Shown in pieces: positions 13,839 through 44,671 of a stretch of 64,000 nucleotides of DNA (position 1 is the stretch's first letter; every line of letters starts with the position of its first letter). The stretch is taken from positions 1 to 64,000 of the forward strand of contig NZ_NDFH01000002.1 of NCBI RefSeq assembly GCF_002239585.1, given 5' to 3'. Both the position numbers and the translations under genes were made by a program. This stretch comes from Psychromonas sp. CD1. Lineage in GTDB: Bacteria; Pseudomonadota; Gammaproteobacteria; Enterobacterales; Psychromonadaceae. The notes beneath the pieces were generated by a model. The model ran no database searches, was not told the origin of the DNA, and worked only from the letters and a program-made list of their open reading frames with translations.

Positions 13839-14960
13839 TTAGCCTTTTAACTTGAGATAACCGTGTACGGTAAGCGTAATACTACCATCTATCTCCAATT
13901 CTATTAACTGCTTTTGTAAAGAGAGTAAATCTAAACCACTACGTTGTAATAACTGATCAAGTGTCGTGTGATTAAAATCAATATGTTGTAATAGAGATGA
14001 AGTTTTTAATTGAACCTTAGAAGGATGATGTTTTGGACAATTAAATAAATTAAGATGTTGAAACTCTGTAATGATATCTTGGCTTTTCGTTATCAATTTC
14101 CCTCCTTGTTGAATGAGTTTATGGCATCCACATGCTTCAGGATTATCGATAGACCCAGGCAAGGCAAAAACGTCTCTGTTTTGTTCATTTGCATAACGAG
14201 CGGTGATTAATGAGCCACTGCGTATCGAAGCTTCAATGACAAAAACACCTAAGCTTAACCCTGAAATAATGCGATTTCGACGCGGGAAATGTGCACTTAA
14301 AGGGAAGGCATCTGGCCAGAATTCTGAAATTAATAGACCTTCTTGACTGATTTGCTTTGCAAGTTTCAGATGTCTTTTGGGGTAAATGTTATTTAACCCG
14401 GATCCGAGTACTGCCAGCGTTTTTTGCTCGGCGTCTAAAGCACCTTGATGTGCGAATCCATCTACACCTATGGCGAGACCACTTGTAATACTAAAACCTG
14501 CAGTGCTTAACTGTTGTGCAAATTGATATGCTTTTTGTTGTCCGTAATGTGTGCAAGAACGACTTCCAACAATGGCGATTTGTGGTGTGCATAAAAGGCT
14601 TATATCACCTTGTAAATAGAGTAATAGTGGAGGGTTAGATATTTCTTTGAGTAGCGGGGGATAGCGTGGGTCGTCAAAAGCAATGATATATTTGTTTTCT
14701 TGCGTATCTTGCCAGTTTAGATTATTTTGTATTTTCTGCTCATCTGGGTTTTTTAACGCCTGTATCTGTTTATCATTAAATTTATATTGTTGTAATTGAA
14801 TGGTGGGAATAGTATTTAATTGACCAATACAATGGCGACGCAATAAAGAAAATAATATGCGTTTGGAGAGTCGAGGAACGGCATCTAATATCATCCACTG
14901 ATATAGATGGCGTTGCTCGAAATTAAAAGAGTCTATTTGTGCAAAGAGATTTTTTTGCAT
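13839..14960 (-). CDS. dprA: DNA-processing protein DprA (Smf)
   Basis: 373-residue DprA. The Rossmann-like core shows AIVGSRSCTHYGQQKA, GLAIGVDGFAHQGAL, GSGLNNIYPKRH and RSGSLITARYA; a winged-helix DML1-like tail follows. It loads RecA on incoming single-stranded DNA during transformation. The start is problematic: a 42-bp duplication upstream contains an in-frame ATT at 15000-15002 with AAGAGG at good spacing, while the ATG at 14958-14960 has no ribosome binding site. Translation may begin at ATT, adding 14 residues, or be weak. See the repeat at 14925-15007. Confidence 0.9.
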   Translation of the reverse strand: MQKNLFAQIDSFNFEQRHLYQWMILDAVPRLSKRILFSLLRRHCIGQLNTIPTIQLQQYKFNDKQIQALKNPDEQKIQNNLNWQDTQENKYIIAFDDPRYPPLLKEISNPPLLLYLQGDISLLCTPQIAIVGSRSCTHYGQQKAYQFAQQLSTAGFSITSGLAIGVDGFAHQGALDAEQKTLAVLGSGLNNIYPKRHLKLAKQISQEGLLISEFWPDAFPLSAHFPRRNRIISGLSLGVFVIEASIRSGSLITARYANEQNRDVFALPGSIDNPEACGCHKLIQQGGKLITKSQDIITEFQHLNLFNCPKHHPSKVQLKTSSLLQHIDFNHTTLDQLLQRSGLDLLSLQKQLIELEIDGSITLTVHGYLKLKG

Positions 14961-15007
14961 AAGCGTAAAAGAGTCTATTTGTGCAAAGAGATTTTTTTGA
15001 ATAAGCG
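14925..15007. repeat. 42-bp tandem duplication at the dprA start
   Basis: Two copies, 14925-14965 and 14967-15007, with a period of 42 bp (14 codons, in frame) and a single mismatch at 14958 versus 15000. That mismatch turns the start codon ATG of one copy into ATT in the other. The copy next to the AAGAGG ribosome binding site (15008-15013) is the one that lost ATG. Confidence 0.95.
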
Positions 15008-35117: not shown

Positions 35118-36011
35118 GTGCTAAAAGTTTTTTCTTATGCTCGTATGGCAATCTATTATTTGACAAGGTTTTTTGTGTTGTTATCTCCTCATTTAGAAAA
35201 GTTATCGATAATCATGTTGCTGATGGGAGAGGCTTTTGTCGCTTATCAATTAGCTTTACTTACTTGGTTTTTGTTGTCTCCTCCTCTGACAGTAGCAGTT
35301 TGGACTGCCCCTATTGTAACTCAGCAGCAACAAGATATGCGCCTTAGAACACAGATACTACAATCCGTGTTTCTTTTTGGACAACAAAAAATAGCTCCTC
35401 AAAAGATAACACAGAAGAGCAAATCAGAAATAGCGCCTAAAACAACATTAAAATTAACGTTGGTTGGCGTCGTTGCTGCTTCAGATCCTGCTTATTCAAG
35501 CGCTATTATTACTTACGAAGGACAGCAAGATAGTTATTTTATTGATTCAACGCTTGCTAATAATCAAGCCAGTATTCTTGAAATACTTGCAGATCGTATT
35601 ATTTTAAATGTTCGAGGAGCTCGGCAAACATTAATGCTAGATGGCGCAGAAGAAGAATTTGATAATATGTCATCGGTAGAAACAAAAATGACGACGAGTG
35701 TGATCACACTTAATTTAGATAGAAATATGTTACTTAAAAATCCAAGTTCTATCTTGAATTATATTAATATTTATCCGATTAAAGACGCTGGCCGTATGCA
35801 AGGTTATCGACTCTCCCCAGGACGAAATCCTGAATTATTTAGTGACTCTGGTTTACATACAGGGGATCTTGCGGTGCAATTAAATGGGGTTGATCTGACA
35901 GATAGACAAAAATCTTTAGCATTAATGAAAGATTTTAAGACAATGACTGAAATGAAGATAACGGTTCAACGACAAGGGGAATTATATGATATCTATTTTG
36001 CTATGCCCTAA
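35118..36011 (+). CDS. gspC: Type II secretion protein GspC
   Basis: About 297 residues from a GTG start, or about 288 from ATG 35145; neither has a clear ribosome binding site. One membrane segment (about 28-52), an HR domain with LKLTLVGVVAASDPAYSSAIIT, and a C-terminal PDZ-like domain (YRLSPGRNPELFSDSGLHTGDLAVQLNGVDL). It connects the inner-membrane platform to the secretin GspD. First gene of the operon; it appears intact. Confidence 0.9.
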   Translation: MLKVFSYARMAIYYLTRFFVLLSPHLEKLSIIMLLMGEAFVAYQLALLTWFLLSPPLTVAVWTAPIVTQQQQDMRLRTQILQSVFLFGQQKIAPQKITQKSKSEIAPKTTLKLTLVGVVAASDPAYSSAIITYEGQQDSYFIDSTLANNQASILEILADRIILNVRGARQTLMLDGAEEEFDNMSSVETKMTTSVITLNLDRNMLLKNPSSILNYINIYPIKDAGRMQGYRLSPGRNPELFSDSGLHTGDLAVQLNGVDLTDRQKSLALMKDFKTMTEMKITVQRQGELYDIYFAMP

Positions 36012-36062: not shown

Positions 36063-38103
36063 ATGAAATTTTTAATGCATAAAGGTAAGATATTAAGTTT
36101 TATATTGTGTCTCTTACTCGTGCCCAATGCCTTTTCCACTGAGTATTCTGCGAGTTTTAAAAATGCAGATATTAATGAATTTATTAATATAGTCGGCAAG
36201 AATCTACATAAAACGATTATCATCGATCCCGCGGTCCGTGGGAAAATAAATGTACGTAGTTATGATCTTCTGAATGAAGATCAATATTATCAATTCTTCT
36301 TAAACGTTTTAGAAGTATATGGTTTTGCTACGGTTGAAACAGCGGATAACGTTATCAAAGTTATTCGTGCTAAAGATGCGAAAGTGGCAGCGATACCGGT
36401 TGTTGATGATGGAGAAATTTATAAAGGTGATGAAATGGTCACGCGTGTTGTGCCTGTGCTCAATGTTTCTGTTCGTGAGTTAGCCCCGTTATTACGTCAA
36501 CTTAATGATAATGCAGGGGGTGGTAATGTTGTGCATTATGGACCATCTAATGTTTTGATGATTACGGGCCGTGCAGCGGTGGTTAATCGACTCGTGGAAA
36601 TCGTGCACCGTGTCGATAAAGCGGGTAATCAAGACGTTGACATTATTAAATTAAAATATGCGAGTGCTCTAGATTTAGTTAATCTGATCACCGAGATACA
36701 GACGCCAGCAAAGGGCTCGTCAAGTAATATCCCTAGTATTTTAAAACCACATGTGGTGGCAGATGAACGTACTAATTCTATTATTATTAGTGGAGATCCT
36801 AAAACAAGATCTCGAATTATAGCCTTAGTGAAAGAGCTAGATAATGAGCTTAAAAGTAATGGTAATACCCGTGTTTTTTATCTTAAATATGCTAAAGCAG
36901 AAGAGGTCGCAGATGTTTTAAAAGGGATAAGTGACGGTATGACTAGTGTTTCTTCTGGATCTAATAATAAAAGTTCAACCCAAGATGGCTTGGCGATTGA
37001 GTCGCACGAAGGTACGAATGCTATCATTATATCTGCGCAACCGGCACTAATGGCCTCGTTAAGTAGTGTTATTCGACAATTAGATATTCGTCGCGCGCAA
37101 GTATTAGTAGAAGCAATTATTGTTGAGATAACTGAAGGTCACGGTATTAATTTAAGTGTGCAATTTGCAACGCCTGGAGGCGGAACACAATTTCTGGGTA
37201 ATGGAGGTCTTACAACGGGAGATGCTATTAACTCTATGCGGAACACAATTTCTGGGTAATGGAGGTCTTACAACGGGAGATGCTATTAACTCTATGTACA
37301 CAATAAATAATAATGATGGTGGTGATTTAAGCGATGTCGGCTCTGCATTAAGTAAAATAGACGGCGGAATAATAGGTTATATAGGCTCTAATTGGGGGGT
37401 GATGTTACAGGCGATTAGTCGTACAACGGGGTCAAATATATTATCAACACCAAGTATTATGACCTTAGATAATCAAGAGGCTAGCTTTTTAGTTGGGGAT
37501 GAAGTTCCTGTTTTAACGGGGTCAACCTCGAGTTCAGATAATGATAACCCTTTCCAAACGATTGAGCGTAAGGATATTGGGGTGAAATTAAATGTAACAC
37601 CACAGATTAATGAAGGTGATTCGGTGCAGTTGTTGATAGAGCAAGAAGTCTCATCGATTAAAGATAGCACTAATACAGTAGATGTTGTGTTTTCAACGCG
37701 TTCAATAAAAACAACCGTATTGGTAAAATCAGGACAAACGATTGTTCTTGGTGGTTTAATCGATGATAAAGTCATTGAGTCTGTAGATAAAGTTCCCATA
37801 CTTGGCGATATCCCTTGGTTAGGTAATTTGTTTAAATCAACGATAAGTACGACTGAAAAACGGAATTTAATGATTTTTTTACGGGCAACAATTATTCGGG
37901 ATGAAGATACAATGAATAAGCTAAGCATGCGTAAATATTCACTTATTCGAGCGATGCAAAAAACACAACGTGATATTGGTATTAATTTGATGCCAAGCGA
38001 GAAAGCACCAATATTACCGAAATGGAAAAAAAGTAAAAAAGTAGACGTTAAGGATTTTGTAAAGAAAGGTAAATCATTAAAGCCCGGGGATGATAATGCC
38101 TAA
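36063..38103 (+). pseudogene. gspD: Frameshifted secretin GspD
   Basis: Signal peptide (about 1-26), N0-N3 domains and the start of the secretin core are in the first frame, which ends early at 37259 after NSMRNTISG. The remaining ~270 residues, with the secretin core (VPVLTGSTSS, VSSIKDS, VLGGLIDDK...VPILGDIPWLGNLF), continue in another frame to 38103. The cause is visible: a perfect 58-bp tandem duplication at 37180-37295. Removing one copy leaves exactly 661 codons, a normal secretin length. The first-frame product would lack the membrane beta-barrel. Downstream gspE is 6-14 bp away. Confidence 0.92.
37180..37295. repeat. Perfect 58-bp tandem duplication inside gspD
   Basis: Copy 1 is 37180-37237 and copy 2 is 37238-37295, identical at every base. 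58 is not a multiple of three, so the duplication shifts the reading frame by +1. Perfect identity implies it is recent, or an assembly error. Confidence 0.97.
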
Positions 38104-39640
38104 TCTAGAGCCTTCTCTGTCAGGGACTGAGGATGAGGTAGATAATATTATTACTCCTTATGGTCAGCTCCCTTTTGCGTTTTCAAAAAAGCATGAAGTA
38201 GTTATTACCTATAGCGCTGATACAATAAAGCTTTCTTATCTTAATTCCCTGAGTGTAGATTTATTATTTGAGGTGCGCCGAGTTATTGGGTGTTCGTATA
38301 TATTACAAAAAGTTAAGCAAGCTCTCTTTAACGAATTGGTGGCGAATGCTTATCAATCATCTTCATCTGAAGCGCAGCAACTTATGCAAGATATAGGCAG
38401 TGATGACTTGTTCTCACTTGCAGAGGATATGCCTGCAAACGAAGATCTTCTTGAGACAGAAGGTGATGCGCCTATTATCAAATTGATCAATGCATTATTG
38501 GGCGAAGCGATTAAAGAAGAAGCCTCTGACATTCACATCGAAACGTTTGAAAACACATTAATTATCCGTTTTAGAATTGATGGTATTTTACGTGAAATTT
38601 TAAAGCCACAGCGCAAAATAGCGGCGTTATTAGTATCAAGAATTAAAGTCATGGCGAAGCTTGATATAGCCGAAAAGCGGGTGCCACAAGATGGTCGAAT
38701 CTCATTGCGTATCGGAGGGCGCGCTGTAGATGTGCGAGTTTCGACTATGCCGGCAAGTCATGGCGAGCGAGTTGTGCTGCGATTACTGGATAAGAATGCC
38801 ATAAAACTGGATCTTGCAACGCTAGGAATGACTAAAAGAAATCATCAGTTAATGCGAAGCTTAATTAAAAAACCACATGGTATTGTATTAGTGACTGGCC
38901 CTACCGGTTCGGGTAAAAGTACGACTTTATATGCATCATTAATGGAAATAAATGCTAAAGATCGTAATATTTTAACCATTGAAGATCCCATTGAATATGC
39001 AATTGAGGGGATAGGGCAAACACAAGTAAATAATAAAGTGGATATGACTTTTTCACGGGGTTTACGGGCTATTTTACGCCAAGATCCTGATGTGGTTATG
39101 ATTGGTGAAATCCGAGATCTTGAAACTGCACAAATATCGGTACAGGCCAGTTTAACTGGGCATTTAGTTTTTTCGACATTACATACTAATAGTGCCGTTG
39201 GTGCGGTAACGCGTTTGCGTGATATGGGTGTTGAGCCATTTCTACTTTCATCAAGCCTATTAGGTGTGCTTGCACAACGTCTTGTGCGCCGTTTATGTGT
39301 GCATTGTAAGGTTGCACATGTTGCGAGTTTAGAAGAAAAAAATATTTTAGGTATGTCTGCGGACAAAGACGTGACGTTCTATAATGCGCAAGGGTGTGAA
39401 CATTGTAATGCAACAGGTTACCGAGGTCGAATGGGGATCCATGAATTGTTGATTGTCACTGATGTGGTTCGAGAATTGGTGCATACGGGAGCGGGTGAGA
39501 AAGCGATTGAAAAAGAGATCCGTCAAACGTCGCCGAGTATTCGCCAAGATGGTATGGAAAAAGTGTGCCAAGGTTTAACAACATTAGAAGAAATATTACG
39601 TGTAACGAGTGAGGATGAATGTGCCAACCTTCTTATATAA
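38096..39640 (+). CDS. gspE: Type II secretion ATPase GspE
   Basis: About 514 residues from ATG 38096 (GGGGA 5 bp upstream). An N-terminal cytoplasmic domain with [24 protein letters not shown], then Walker [14 protein letters not shown], the Asp box, Walker [12 protein letters not shown] and a C4 zinc site (CVHC...CEHC). Nearly identical in layout to V. cholerae EpsE. It powers pseudopilus assembly and binds GspL, which is truncated here. It overlaps gspF by 20 bp. Confidence 0.95.
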
Positions 39641-40835
39641 AGCATTAGATCAGAAAGGAAAACCTATAAAAGGAACTTTAGAAGCCGATTCCTCTCGTTT
39701 ATTAAGGCAAAAATTGCGCGCGAAAGGTTATATGCCATTACATGTTGAAATTGTGAGTCAACAGTCAAGTAATAGTATTAAACGCTTGTATCGTTGTAAA
39801 ATAAAAACAGCGGAATTGGCTTTGATAACACGTCAGCTTTCAACGTTGGTCGCATCTTCTATTCCGATTGAAGAGTGTTTACAAGCTGTTTTTGAGCAAT
39901 GTGATAAAGAAAGTTTGAAAACGATTATCGCCTCTGTGCGGGGCTCTGTCATCGAAGGGCATAATTTGGCCGATAGTTTGAATACATTTCCTTTTGTATT
40001 TGATACTTTATTTTGTGCAATGGTTGCAGCGGGAGAGCGTTCGGGACATTTAGATAAAGTGCTAGATAAACTCGCCGATTATGCAGAGCAACGTCAAGCC
40101 ATGAAGAGCACCATTCAGCAAGCCATGATTTATCCTTTTGTTTTAACATTGGTAGCGGTTGGTGTTGTGTCTATATTATTGACCGCGGTTGTGCCACAAG
40201 TGGTGGGTCAATTTGAGCATATGGGAGCGGAGTTACCTGCTACAACGACCTTATTAATTGCGATAAGTGATTCACTTAGGGCTTATGGTTTGTATTTTCT
40301 GGGGGGGGTATGGTTGTCTTTAATGGCTCTAAAACAGTTTTTGAAAAAAGAAAAGAATAAGTTAATATTTTCTGAATATTTATTACGTTTACCTGTAATT
40401 GGTAATGTATCGAAAGAGCTAAATACGGCTCGTTTTGCTCGTACGTTAAGTATTTTAAATAGTAGCGCGGTGCCTTTATTAGAGGCAATGGGGATCGCGG
40501 GTAATGTTCTGGGTAATCCCTTTATTCGTTTGCGTGTAGCAGAGGCAACCGAGTGTGTACGTTCAGGAGTGAGTCTAGGGCTTGCGCTTAGAAATACAAA
40601 ATTATTTCCACCGATGATGCTACACATGATTGCGAGTGGAGAACGCAGTGGAGAACTTGGTAATATGCTTTCTCGCTCTGCGGATAATCAAGATAAACAA
40701 TTTGCAGCGCAAGTGAGTATTGCAATTGGTTTATTTGAACCTGCGTTGATAGTTTCAATGGCAGGAGTGGTTCTTTTTATTGTGATGGCAATATTAGAGC
40801 CGATACTGCAGCTTAATAATTTAGTTTCAGCTTAA
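39621..40835 (+). CDS. gspF: Type II secretion inner-membrane protein GspF
   Basis: 404 residues from GTG 39621, placed by GAGGA at 39611-39615. [18 protein letters not shown] is the usual GspF start. Two GspF/PilC repeats with three membrane segments, including [28 protein letters not shown]. It is intact. Confidence 0.94.
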
Positions 40836-40850
40836 TCAAAGGAAAATAAA

Positions 40851-41273
40851 GTGCTTAAAAATAATAAACAAAAAGGTTTTACATTACTTGAAATCATGGT
40901 GGTTATTGTGATTTTGGGTGTACTTGCATCGCTTGTCGTGCCTAATTTAATGGGTAATAAAGATAAAGCGGATCGCCAAAAAGTTATCTCAGATCTGGTG
41001 GCATTGGAAAATGCGTTAGATATGTATAAATTAGATAATTCTCGTTATCCAACAACGGACCAAGGTTTAAATGCACTTTTAGAAAAACCGAGTGGTTCAC
41101 CTGAGCCTCGTAATTATGCCGAAGATGGTTATATTAAACGTTTACCACAAGATCCATGGGGTAATGATTATATTTTAAATAGTCCGGGTGAGCATAGTAA
41201 AATTGACGTTTTATCTGTAGGGCAAGATGCAGAAGAAGATACCGGAGACGATATTGGAAACTGGGATTTGTAG
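40851..41273 (+). CDS. gspG: Major pseudopilin GspG
   Basis: 140 residues, start GTG. A prepilin peptidase site QKG/FTLLEIMVVIVILGVLASLVVPNLMG lies at residues 8-9. TTDQGLNALLEKP and LPQDPWGNDYILNSPGEH are diagnostic of GspG, as is the acidic C-terminal Ca2+ loop. Intact. Confidence 0.97.
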   Translation: MLKNNKQKGFTLLEIMVVIVILGVLASLVVPNLMGNKDKADRQKVISDLVALENALDMYKLDNSRYPTTDQGLNALLEKPSGSPEPRNYAEDGYIKRLPQDPWGNDYILNSPGEHSKIDVLSVGQDAEEDTGDDIGNWDL

Positions 41274-41293: not shown

Positions 41294-41848
41294 ATGGCAG
41301 ATTTTAAAAATAAGCAACAAGGGTTTACATTACTTGAGATAATGTTGGTCGTTTTGATAATGGCGATGGTGTCTGTCGGTGTAGTGATGAATTTACCAAA
41401 AATCACACAACAAGATGAAGATCTAAATTGGCAAACTCAGCGTTTTGTTACCTTGTTGCATTTTTTTCAAGATGAAGCGCTAATGTCAGGTAAAGAATTA
41501 GGTATTATCTTAAGGGATAATGGTTATCAATTTATTGTATATCAATATACAGATAAAGAGTGGCAGAAATTAACCATTAAAAGAGTAACGACGCAAGTGA
41601 CTTTACCGGAATCTTTGACATTAAAATTTACGTTACAAGGAGCTGTATGGGAAGAGCTTGATAGTGCGGATGTAGAAGTAAACAAAGATGCTTTAATTCC
41701 ACAAGTATATGTTATGTCTAGTGGCGAAGTTACACCCTTTAGTATTGAATTTTTGAATGGTTCGTTTGTTGATAAGAAGAATCCCGGATTGATCACGATT
41801 AACATGAGTGGTGAAATAGAGTATGAAGATGCGCATAAAGCGGAGTGA
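41294..41848 (+). CDS. gspH: Minor pseudopilin GspH
   Basis: 184 residues with prepilin site QQG/FTLLEIMLVVLIMAMVSVGVVMNL and the GspH-type GVVMNLP. The C-terminal globular part is complete (SGEVTPFSIEFL). It overlaps gspI by 26 bp. Confidence 0.9.
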   Translation: MADFKNKQQGFTLLEIMLVVLIMAMVSVGVVMNLPKITQQDEDLNWQTQRFVTLLHFFQDEALMSGKELGIILRDNGYQFIVYQYTDKEWQKLTIKRVTTQVTLPESLTLKFTLQGAVWEELDSADVEVNKDALIPQVYVMSSGEVTPFSIEFLNGSFVDKKNPGLITINMSGEIEYEDAHKAE

Positions 41849-42203
41849 CGTACAAGGAATGACTTTATTAGAGGTGATGTTGGCTTTGGTTATCTTGGCT
41901 ACTGCGGGTTTAGCTGTGATGCAAGCCGCATCAAATGTACTTAATAATCAAGCACGATTAGAAGATAAAAGTTTTGCTACTTGGATCGCAAGTAATGCAC
42001 TCGTGGAATTAAAGTTAGAAGAATTATGGCCGACATCGACTTGGAAAAATAGCACTATGGAATTTGCCGATATACAGTGGTTTATTCGTTATAAAGCAGA
42101 TCAAACGGGCGATAGCCAATTTATAGCGGTTGATATGGAAGTACGTAAAGAGGAAAAAGGTGAAGCGTTGGCTTCTATTAGGACGTATTTTGCTAAGCAT
42201 TAA
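41823..42203 (+). CDS. gspI: Minor pseudopilin GspI
   Basis: 126 residues with prepilin site VQG/MTLLEVMLALVILATAGLAVMQ. Length and the W-P-rich middle are typical. The 3' end overlaps what remains of gspJ. Confidence 0.92.
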   Translation: MKMRIKRSDVQGMTLLEVMLALVILATAGLAVMQAASNVLNNQARLEDKSFATWIASNALVELKLEELWPTSTWKNSTMEFADIQWFIRYKADQTGDSQFIAVDMEVRKEEKGEALASIRTYFAKH

Positions 42204-42258
42204 GCGTCGGCATGCTCAGTTATCAGGTTTCACGCTGATTGAAATGCTTGTTGCTATT
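42190..42258 (+). pseudogene. gspJ: Remnant of pseudopilin gene gspJ
   Basis: About 23 codons remain, TTG start through SGFTLIEMLVAI, the canonical GspJ leader and the first turn of its N-terminal helix. After 42258 the DNA passes into gspK sequence in a different frame. Roughly 170-180 codons of a normal GspJ are missing, so this is a deletion. Confidence 0.85.
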
Positions 42259-43240
42259 GAAAACAGGCAGACAAAAAGGTATGGCATTGATTATTGTTTT
42301 AATGGTTTTAGCTATTATGGTATTACTTGCCAGCTCAATGACGGAGCGCTTGACGTTAAGTTTAAAACGTACCCAAGGGGTAATGTTAAGTCAAGGTAGT
42401 TATTGGTATGCCCAAGCAACCACAGAGCTTGCTAAAATGATTTTAGAAAATGACTTTTCAAGTGAAGAGCGGGTGAGTTTAGATCAAGACTGGGCGACGC
42501 CCGACACCGTATTTCCATTGGAAAATGGCAATATCAGAGGCACAATTAAAGACATGCGTAGCTGTTTTAATATCAACGCGATTGCAAAGCAGGACAAAGA
42601 TGAAGTACGTGCAGAAGGTGTACAGCAATTACAGCGATTACTTGAAGCATTAGATGTGGACGATTACAGTGCAGAAACTATCGCAGACTCGACACGAGAC
42701 TGGATTGATGCTGATACTGATAGTCTTGCCGCACAAGGAGCAGAAGATAGCTTCTATGAGGGATTATCGGTTGCGCATTTAACCGCTAATGAACTAATGA
42801 TTGATATAAGTGAATTGCGTGCGGTGCGCGGAGTTAGTCAAAATATTTTTGCGAAAATAGCGCCTTATTTGTGCGCAATACCCTCGGCAACTCAAAGAAT
42901 AAATGTTAATACAGTGCCTGTTGATCAACCTGAAATCTTATATGCACTTTTTCCTGAATCTTTAAATTTAAGTATTCGAGATTTCGAACAGTTATTAGAA
43001 AATCGAAGTGACAGTGGCTGGGCAAATGTCGATGCATTCTTAGCTGAGGATACTTTTAGCAGTAGTGCTTCCAACATTTCGGCTCAGTTAAAAAGTCAAT
43101 TGAGCGTAAAGAGTGAGTTCTTTCAGCTTAACGGCATCGTACAATTTGCAGAACGGTTATTAAAAATTAAATTGTTGTTTAAAATGGAAAATCAGAAAGC
43201 ATATACTATCCGGTATCAATCATCAGGGCTAGGCTCATAA
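42239..43240 (+). CDS. gspK: Minor pseudopilin GspK with altered 5' end
   Basis: About 333 residues if begun at TTG 42239, which lies in former gspJ sequence; the first 8-9 residues (MKCLLLLK) are out-of-frame gspJ. The GspK body is intact from GRQKG/MALIIVLMVLAIMVLLASSM, with both SAM-like helical domains and CFNINAIA. ATG 42281 could also start it but would leave no leader peptide. The native start codon seems to have been removed by the same deletion that destroyed gspJ. Confidence 0.85.
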   Translation: MKCLLLLKTGRQKGMALIIVLMVLAIMVLLASSMTERLTLSLKRTQGVMLSQGSYWYAQATTELAKMILENDFSSEERVSLDQDWATPDTVFPLENGNIRGTIKDMRSCFNINAIAKQDKDEVRAEGVQQLQRLLEALDVDDYSAETIADSTRDWIDADTDSLAAQGAEDSFYEGLSVAHLTANELMIDISELRAVRGVSQNIFAKIAPYLCAIPSATQRINVNTVPVDQPEILYALFPESLNLSIRDFEQLLENRSDSGWANVDAFLAEDTFSSSASNISAQLKSQLSVKSEFFQLNGIVQFAERLLKIKLLFKMENQKAYTIRYQSSGLGS

Positions 43241-43328: not shown

Positions 43329-43970
43329 GTGACTGAACAGTTAATTATTCGCTTGGCAAGTGAATCTACACAGAAAAATCACTGGTTAATTTGGTCAGAA
43401 ACTGAAAATGAGATCATTGCATCTGGCGAGGTTGACGATGCATTACAACTTAATTTATTAACTGAAAAAGCGCAGAATCGCTTAGTTATTTGTCTATTAC
43501 CGGGTGTGGATGTCAATATTAGAGCGGTACCGATAAAAGGAAAATATAATCGGCATATACAACAAGCTTTACCTTACTTATTAGAAGATGACTTAGCGAC
43601 AGATGTAGAAAAATTACATTTTAATGTGTTTTCCAAAGAGCGAGATTTAATTCATGTGGCATATTGCACCCAAAAAAAAATGCATATGTGGCTACATTGG
43701 CTTAGTGAAGCGCAACTAAATTGTCTGCAAATGATCCCTGAAGGGTTAGTTTTACCGATAGCTGAAGAAGGGCATTGGTCTGCAATTGAACTCGGTGAAC
43801 AAGTAATTGTTCGTGAGAATAAAGAGATAGCTTGGAGTTGTGATCGATGCATGCTTTCAATCATTTTAGAAAGTAAAGCTCAAGAAAAATTAGATGATGA
43901 TGATCTAATAAAAATTGATACTTATTCTGCCTCGTTATCTTTTTTGTTTGTTTTTATGTGTTGTCGCTAA
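43329..43970 (+). pseudogene. gspL: C-terminally deleted GspL
   Basis: 213 residues against about 390-400 for GspL. The actin-like cytoplasmic domain is recognisable (LLPGVDVNIRAVPIKGKYNRHIQQALPYLLEDDLATDVEKLH). The frame then runs into gspN membrane-segment DNA at about 43930 and stops with FLFVFMCCR. The transmembrane helix, the periplasmic domain and all of gspM are absent. Start is GTG 43329. Confidence 0.88.
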
Positions 43971-44671
43971 TAGCAACGCTTCCTGCAACATTATTACTAC
44001 CTTTTTTAGCGGAAAATAAAGTATTAAAAGTGGATACGTTATCGGGAACAATATGGCATGGCTATGCGCAACAAATACGTTATCAGAAAAGCTATCGCTT
44101 AAGTGATCTTGAATGGTCGTTAAATGTGTGGTCTTTGTTAGCCCTCAAACTCAACGTTGATGTTAAATTTGCTAATAGTGCTCCTCGTTTTCAGGGGAAA
44201 GGTCAGGTGTCATTGAGTCTTACAGAGGCAAATATAAATCACCTCACAATGAATTTGGAGGCGACAGAGGTCTCACCTTATTTGGCATTACCTATTCCTA
44301 TCGAGACACAAGGAGACATACAATTAGTGATCCAACAGGCAACTTTCGAAGGATTAAATTGTAAAAATATAGATGCGAGTGTGACTTGGCAAGATGCACG
44401 TATAAGCTCTGATGTGGGTAATATTAATTTAGCCAATGTAGATGTTGATTTAAGTTGTGCAAGGAACAGTTATATTGCAGAAGTGCTACAAGTCTCATCG
44501 GATTTAAAAACGGAAATACGAATTGATTTAAAAACCAATGGGAGTTATACACTGACTGGGAATATAAAAGAAGGTACCACGCTGGCAAAAAACATCCAAC
44601 AAGGCTTGTCTTTTTTAGGTAAAAAAGAGCCCAATGGTAGCTTTGCATTATCATTTAATGGTCGTTTATAA
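43958..44671 (+). pseudogene. gspN: GspN lacking its N-terminal end
   Basis: 237 residues from GTG 43958. SLIATLPATLLLPFL...GTIWHGYAQQ...LEWSL is the typical GspN body and reaches the normal C-terminus. The first part of the membrane helix (FFVCFYV) is still in frame upstream but a stop at 43916-43918 precedes any ATG, so the native start codon was lost in the gspL-gspN deletion. It overlaps the gspL frame by 13 bp. A shortened protein may still be made. Confidence 0.8.

Follow-up and report, generated by a model that had tools for sequence, protein, structure and literature searches.

Is type II secretion in this Psychromonas switched on and off, or is it being lost? The secretin gene gspD carries a perfect tandem duplication of 58 bp, and a first-pass annotation of the window (the whole stretch of DNA analyzed, 64,000 nucleotides) proposed that slippage between the copies might switch secretion at the level of the population. 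We found that the duplication breaks the gspD reading frame and that other parts of the same operon are missing from the assembly. The duplication is probably a recent, frame-breaking event in a type II secretion operon that was already being lost from a reduced genome. If the assembly is correct, the presumed switch is thereby recast as a decay event.

The duplicated segment in gspD

The two copies lie side by side on the forward strand as identical direct repeats at 37180-37237 and 37238-37295. The unit occurs only these two times in the 64-kb window and not at all on the opposite strand. TRF scored 37180-37296 at 100%, with one matching base beyond two full copies. For periods of 30-200, the longest perfect tandem run in the window was 59, compared with 11-14 in 20 first-order resamples, which rules out a chance origin. 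The first-pass annotation was right that the copies are perfect and that their period is indivisible by three: 58 leaves a remainder of one, and a change in copy number toggles the frame. From start to stop gspD measures 2041 nt, and removing 58 nt leaves 1983 nt, or 661 codons including the stop. The first-pass annotation had given "661 codons" after excision, which stands as a codon count but corresponds to 660 residues; the figure comes from the coordinates alone.

How does the duplication divide the gene? Copy 1 lies in the native gspD frame, and copy 2 shifts the remainder out of the frame set by the start. The 5' part (36063-37259, forward strand) encodes the N0 domain and three Secretin_N stretches and terminates at a stop codon within copy 2. 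The 3' part (37156-38103, forward strand) encodes the Secretin domain; it is a mechanically called ORF that begins with a GTG in the alternative frame of copy 1. These domains bear out the earlier identification of the gene as a split type II secretin. A functional type II secretion system requires GspD in a single frame, and here that frame is split at 37180-37295.

Among the genus-mates, G010 has the most similar gspD (80% identity), with a single copy of the unit at this place in a 658-aa frame. It was the one genome aligned at the site, and the two gspD pieces match overlapping stretches of its single-copy gene. The N-terminal part of gspD was found in 22 of the 23 other genomes of the genus and lies in a single open frame in 21 of those 22. 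The genome with no gspD match, G012, is 51% complete. In G022 gspD is split between frames elsewhere in the gene. In that single-contig Psychromonas genome (L075:7891-10835), gspC and gspD are both split between frames and gspJ, gspL, and gspM are kept; it is possible that these splits reflect independent decay or sequencing error.

Short duplications and the quality of the assembly

The assembly comprises 1,688,234 bases in three contigs, with a completeness of 79.91%, and the window is the beginning of contig C2 (G000:C2:1-64000), which has a G+C content of 37.1%. From the agreement in size, contig number, and G+C content, we infer that it is probably strain CDP1, a bacterium of the deep-trench amphipod gut. 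PMC5893861 describes CDP1 as a genome-reduced gut bacterium of Hirondellea gigas, a hadal amphipod, with 1,688,241 bp in three contigs, 36.9% G+C, and a completeness of 99.3%, compared with 79.91% here. The published size exceeds that of the assembly by 7 bases.

Is the duplication real? The first-pass annotation allowed for an assembly error, and the history of the genome lends this some weight. According to the same paper, the genome was reassembled from the pooled reads of six metagenomes, and Sanger reads linked by hand bridged eight gaps (PMC5893861). An overlap between a contig end and a hand-linked Sanger read, or a join between pooled strains, could have been left in twice. The state of alaS points the same way, as only an internal fragment is present (L136:9786-10829, residues 324-671 of 869), flanked by ORFs that we take to be gshA and an asparaginase gene. 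Because alaS is essential in model bacteria and yet fragmentary here, sequence is probably missing or misjoined. Given this and the pooled, hand-linked assembly, faults of assembly could account for some of the lesions.

The gspD duplication belongs to a larger class. With TRF at a period of at least 30, copies at least 90% alike, and at most 2.5 copies, we counted 17 two-copy tandem duplications of 33-83 bp in 1,070,614 bases, or 63% of the genome. Nine of them are perfect over two full copies, with periods of 40, 43, 52, 52, 55, 58, 67, 75, and 78. The further perfect duplications of this 40-78 bp class lie between genes or at gene edges at L103:2900-3033, L103:14454-14610, L107:18730-18836, L109:5948-6034, L113:11047-11158, L120:13859-14008, and L124:3723-3804, and between two ORFs at L136:14055-14158. 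With a G+C content of 43%, compared with 15-28% in seven other perfect units, the gspD unit is compositionally atypical of its class.

The count leaves out several repeats found in the same stretches. These are L101:14093-14446 (2.6 copies, 95% alike, between ORFs), three more divergent cases (L087:14254-14713, 78-84%; L100:12221-12278, 78%; L121:3370-3432, 81%), the overlapping rows L101:12769-12888 and L111:3879-4040, a run of N, and shorter perfect repeats, including those of 25 and 27 bp in L112 and L127. Also left out was an array of 18-bp units at L115:5586-5710, which lies within a 969-aa ORF and is in frame by its length. Within the window there is an imperfect 42-bp tandem duplication (14924-15007, 97% alike) at the edge of the ORF at 13839-14960, and the heptamer CAATAGC is repeated 3.9 times between two ORFs (2643-2669).

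Where the duplications lie bears on whether they are real. Sixteen of the 17 are between genes or at gene edges, and that of gspD alone is gene-internal. When 15 of these 16 were placed against crude ORFs of at least 90 aa, none lay inside an ORF and the largest overlap was 44%, whereas in simulation random placement gives an overlap of half or less about 12% of the time. The resulting probability products, with independence assumed, are 3.6e-7 for the seven other perfect duplications then known and 1.2e-14 for all 15. The sixteenth, L136:14055-14158, came from a stretch fetched for alaS, so it is no blind sample and stands outside the simulation. This distribution favors real mutation and selection over assembly error, an argument that would weaken if artifacts favor A+T-rich spacers. 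Moreover, the varied periods rule out a fixed k-mer overlap, imperfect copies (93-98% alike) occur as well, as they would for real events that have aged, and both gspD copies (117 bp) fit within one 150-bp read.

How unusual is this number of duplications? Under the same TRF rule, G010 has 2 in 500,000 bases, other stretches from the genus have 3 in 214,771, and 36 loci of other bacteria have none in 706,961. The rates per 100 kb are 1.59 in this genome and 1.40 in the other stretches from the genus, which are so close that this genome does not demonstrably exceed its genus as a whole. For perfect full pairs the excess is clearer, with nine of 40-78 bp in 1,070,614 bases compared with none in 1,421,732 control bases, a control sample that is not random because many of its stretches are centered on type II secretion genes. 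Two control repeats come near without being full perfect pairs: a perfect 1.8-copy repeat of period 93 in G010 (L143) and, where a stretch of G001 ends (L077), a 79-bp repeat in which 73 bases match. The assembly procedure could also cause an excess of perfect pairs. Altogether, an assembly fault at gspD seems unlikely, as the genome-wide pattern of similar duplications argues against it.

At the nine perfect duplications the end homology is 0-3 bp. This hints at an origin by break repair or template switching, and not by slippage between repeats that were already there. We raise tentatively that the lineage has a shifted indel spectrum, in which low-homology duplications of 33-83 bp arise often and persist under weak selection, perhaps through loss of RecA and RecJ with RecB and ExoI kept; the gspD duplication would then be one caught in a dying gene. 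RecB and ExoI were found in the assembly. It gave no match to RecA (PF00154), present in six of six other genomes, or to RecJ (TIGR00644), present in 11 of 12 others. The absence of recA is unsafe because alaS, its neighbor in G004, is only a fragment. The recJ counterpart is absent beside an xerD-like gene within the fully covered contig C2, and its loss is better supported than that of recA, if not conclusively. The set of short duplications may offer a small test case for the indel mechanisms that dominate in a shrinking genome.

The gsp operon and the rest of the genome

The operon follows the gene order C D E F G H I J K L M N, as in G010, and the Pfam domains agree. On the forward strand, gspC (35169-36011), gspE (38096-39640), gspF (39609-40835), gspG (40851-41273), gspH (41294-41848), and gspI (41823-42203) are open frames. 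Relative to G010, a deletion of roughly 0.55 kb has removed most of gspJ and reaches into the start of gspK. The gspJ remnant (42190-42258, forward strand) keeps about the first 23 codons and then runs out of frame into gspK (42239-43240, forward strand), which lacks about six native first codons and is otherwise open. A further deletion of roughly 1.1 kb, with its junction at 43934-43970 on the forward strand, spans the C-terminal half of gspL, the whole of gspM, and the start of gspN. What is left of gspL (43329-43970, forward strand) encodes about 204 of the 402 residues in G010 and then passes out of frame into gspN (43958-44671, forward strand), which lacks its first few codons and is otherwise open.

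Which parts of a working system remain? The GspE ATPase, GspF, and the major pseudopilin GspG are encoded by open frames with 83-93% identity to G010. A prepilin peptidase (PF06750, 301 aa) is present at G000:C2:121323 and may serve type IV pili instead. In model systems, secretion requires GspL, GspM, and GspJ. The families of the GspL C-terminal half (GspL_C, PF12693), GspM (T2SSM, PF04612), and the minor pseudopilin GspJ (T2SSJ, PF11612) were not found in the whole assembly; all three are present in 14 of 14 genus-mates and in seven of nine same-order genomes searched. Elsewhere the assembly encodes a second secretin in a 724-aa frame. In G010, a block of genes that includes a second secretin adjoins gspC (L071:1240-18365); the window lacks an equivalent block there, and the 670,614 bases compared from this genome gave a single weak match to it.

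These losses decide against the proposed switch. Perfect tandem copies with a frame-shifting period are what reversible phase variation by slippage would need, and RecA-independent loss of one copy is a known type of event. However, an "on" state would not yield a working product, as gspJ, the gspL C-terminal half, and gspM are deleted, with no replacement from their families elsewhere in the assembly. Sixteen similar duplications lie outside gene interiors, so the gspD repeat looks like a member of a mutational class and not a switch. Furthermore, there is one copy in G010, the sole genome aligned at the site, and gspD occupies one open frame in nearly all genus-mates. The repeat resembles known tandem-repeat phase variation in being a perfect frame-shifting repeat within a gene, but it consists of two long copies rather than a multi-unit array, and the system has lost further parts to deletion. 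We therefore reject phase variation as very improbable, and a population-level secretion switch is unsupported. That the two gspD ORFs together make a working split secretin is scarcely credible: the second ORF holds the entire Secretin domain and overlaps the first, but GspM and the GspL C-terminal half are missing, and the export signal, which in GspD sits at the N terminus, would be carried by the first ORF.

How old is the damage? The ratio of mean protein distance to outgroups in this genome to that in G010 is 0.93-1.16 for eleven pieces of the secretion system and 0.94-1.10 for five genes outside it (two of them with three outgroups only). The two gspD pieces have the highest ratios of the system (1.16 and 1.12). 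Because the two sets of ratios are similar, this weak test gives little indication of a long period of relaxed evolution; a system still in use would also fit unaccelerated and mostly open frames. Together with the identical copies, these observations make the recency that the first-pass annotation ascribed to the gspD lesion look right.

Is damage confined to this operon? We compared 323 ORFs of G010 of at least 150 aa with the stretches from this genome: an intact counterpart exists for 152, no match for 115, and only a match below 55% identity for 26; a further 12 run off a stretch, and 18 were flagged. The flagged ORFs comprise gspD, gspL, two partial matches, and 14 that we looked at more closely. 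Seven of the 14 have stops in the first 20 residues only and one has a stop only seven residues from the end; these eight are likely start or end differences. The other six may represent damage beyond the operon: one contains three internal stops, four are only partly covered, and one is split in frame. Broken genes are thus few, and the secretion operon stands out.

Origin and meaning of the gspD lesion

In the reading that we favor, the gspD lesion is recent, probably real, and of an ordinary kind, and the secretion operon that it breaks is dying. Most likely, a staggered break or a template switch with 1 bp of end homology duplicated the 58 bp once. The duplication probably escaped purging by selection because the secretion system was already unneeded or non-working. 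Precise loss of one copy by slippage is physically possible, and to that extent the reversibility proposed earlier holds. However, secretion would not return with it, because the operon has also lost GspJ, GspM, and the C-terminal half of GspL.

Provided that the assembly is right, it captures the ongoing loss of type II secretion in a gut bacterium of an amphipod from the deepest trench. A word search of the main text of PMC5893861 finds "secretion" once, in the reference list, and this loss is not mentioned; the word was not found in the available text of PMC8216301. In the one literature collection searched, PMC5893861 was the only paper found on CDP1, and none was found on type II secretion pseudogenes in Psychromonas.

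How does the locus compare with known systems? It is recognizably a type II secretion (gsp) operon by its gene order relative to G010 and its Pfam domains. Unlike a complete gsp operon, it lacks gspJ, the gspL C-terminal half, and gspM, and its gspD is split. It also resembles pseudogene formation in recently host-restricted bacteria, with a reduced genome, a frame-breaking indel and deletions in one operon, and most compared genes intact. It differs in that perfect short tandem duplications are more common here than in control sequence.
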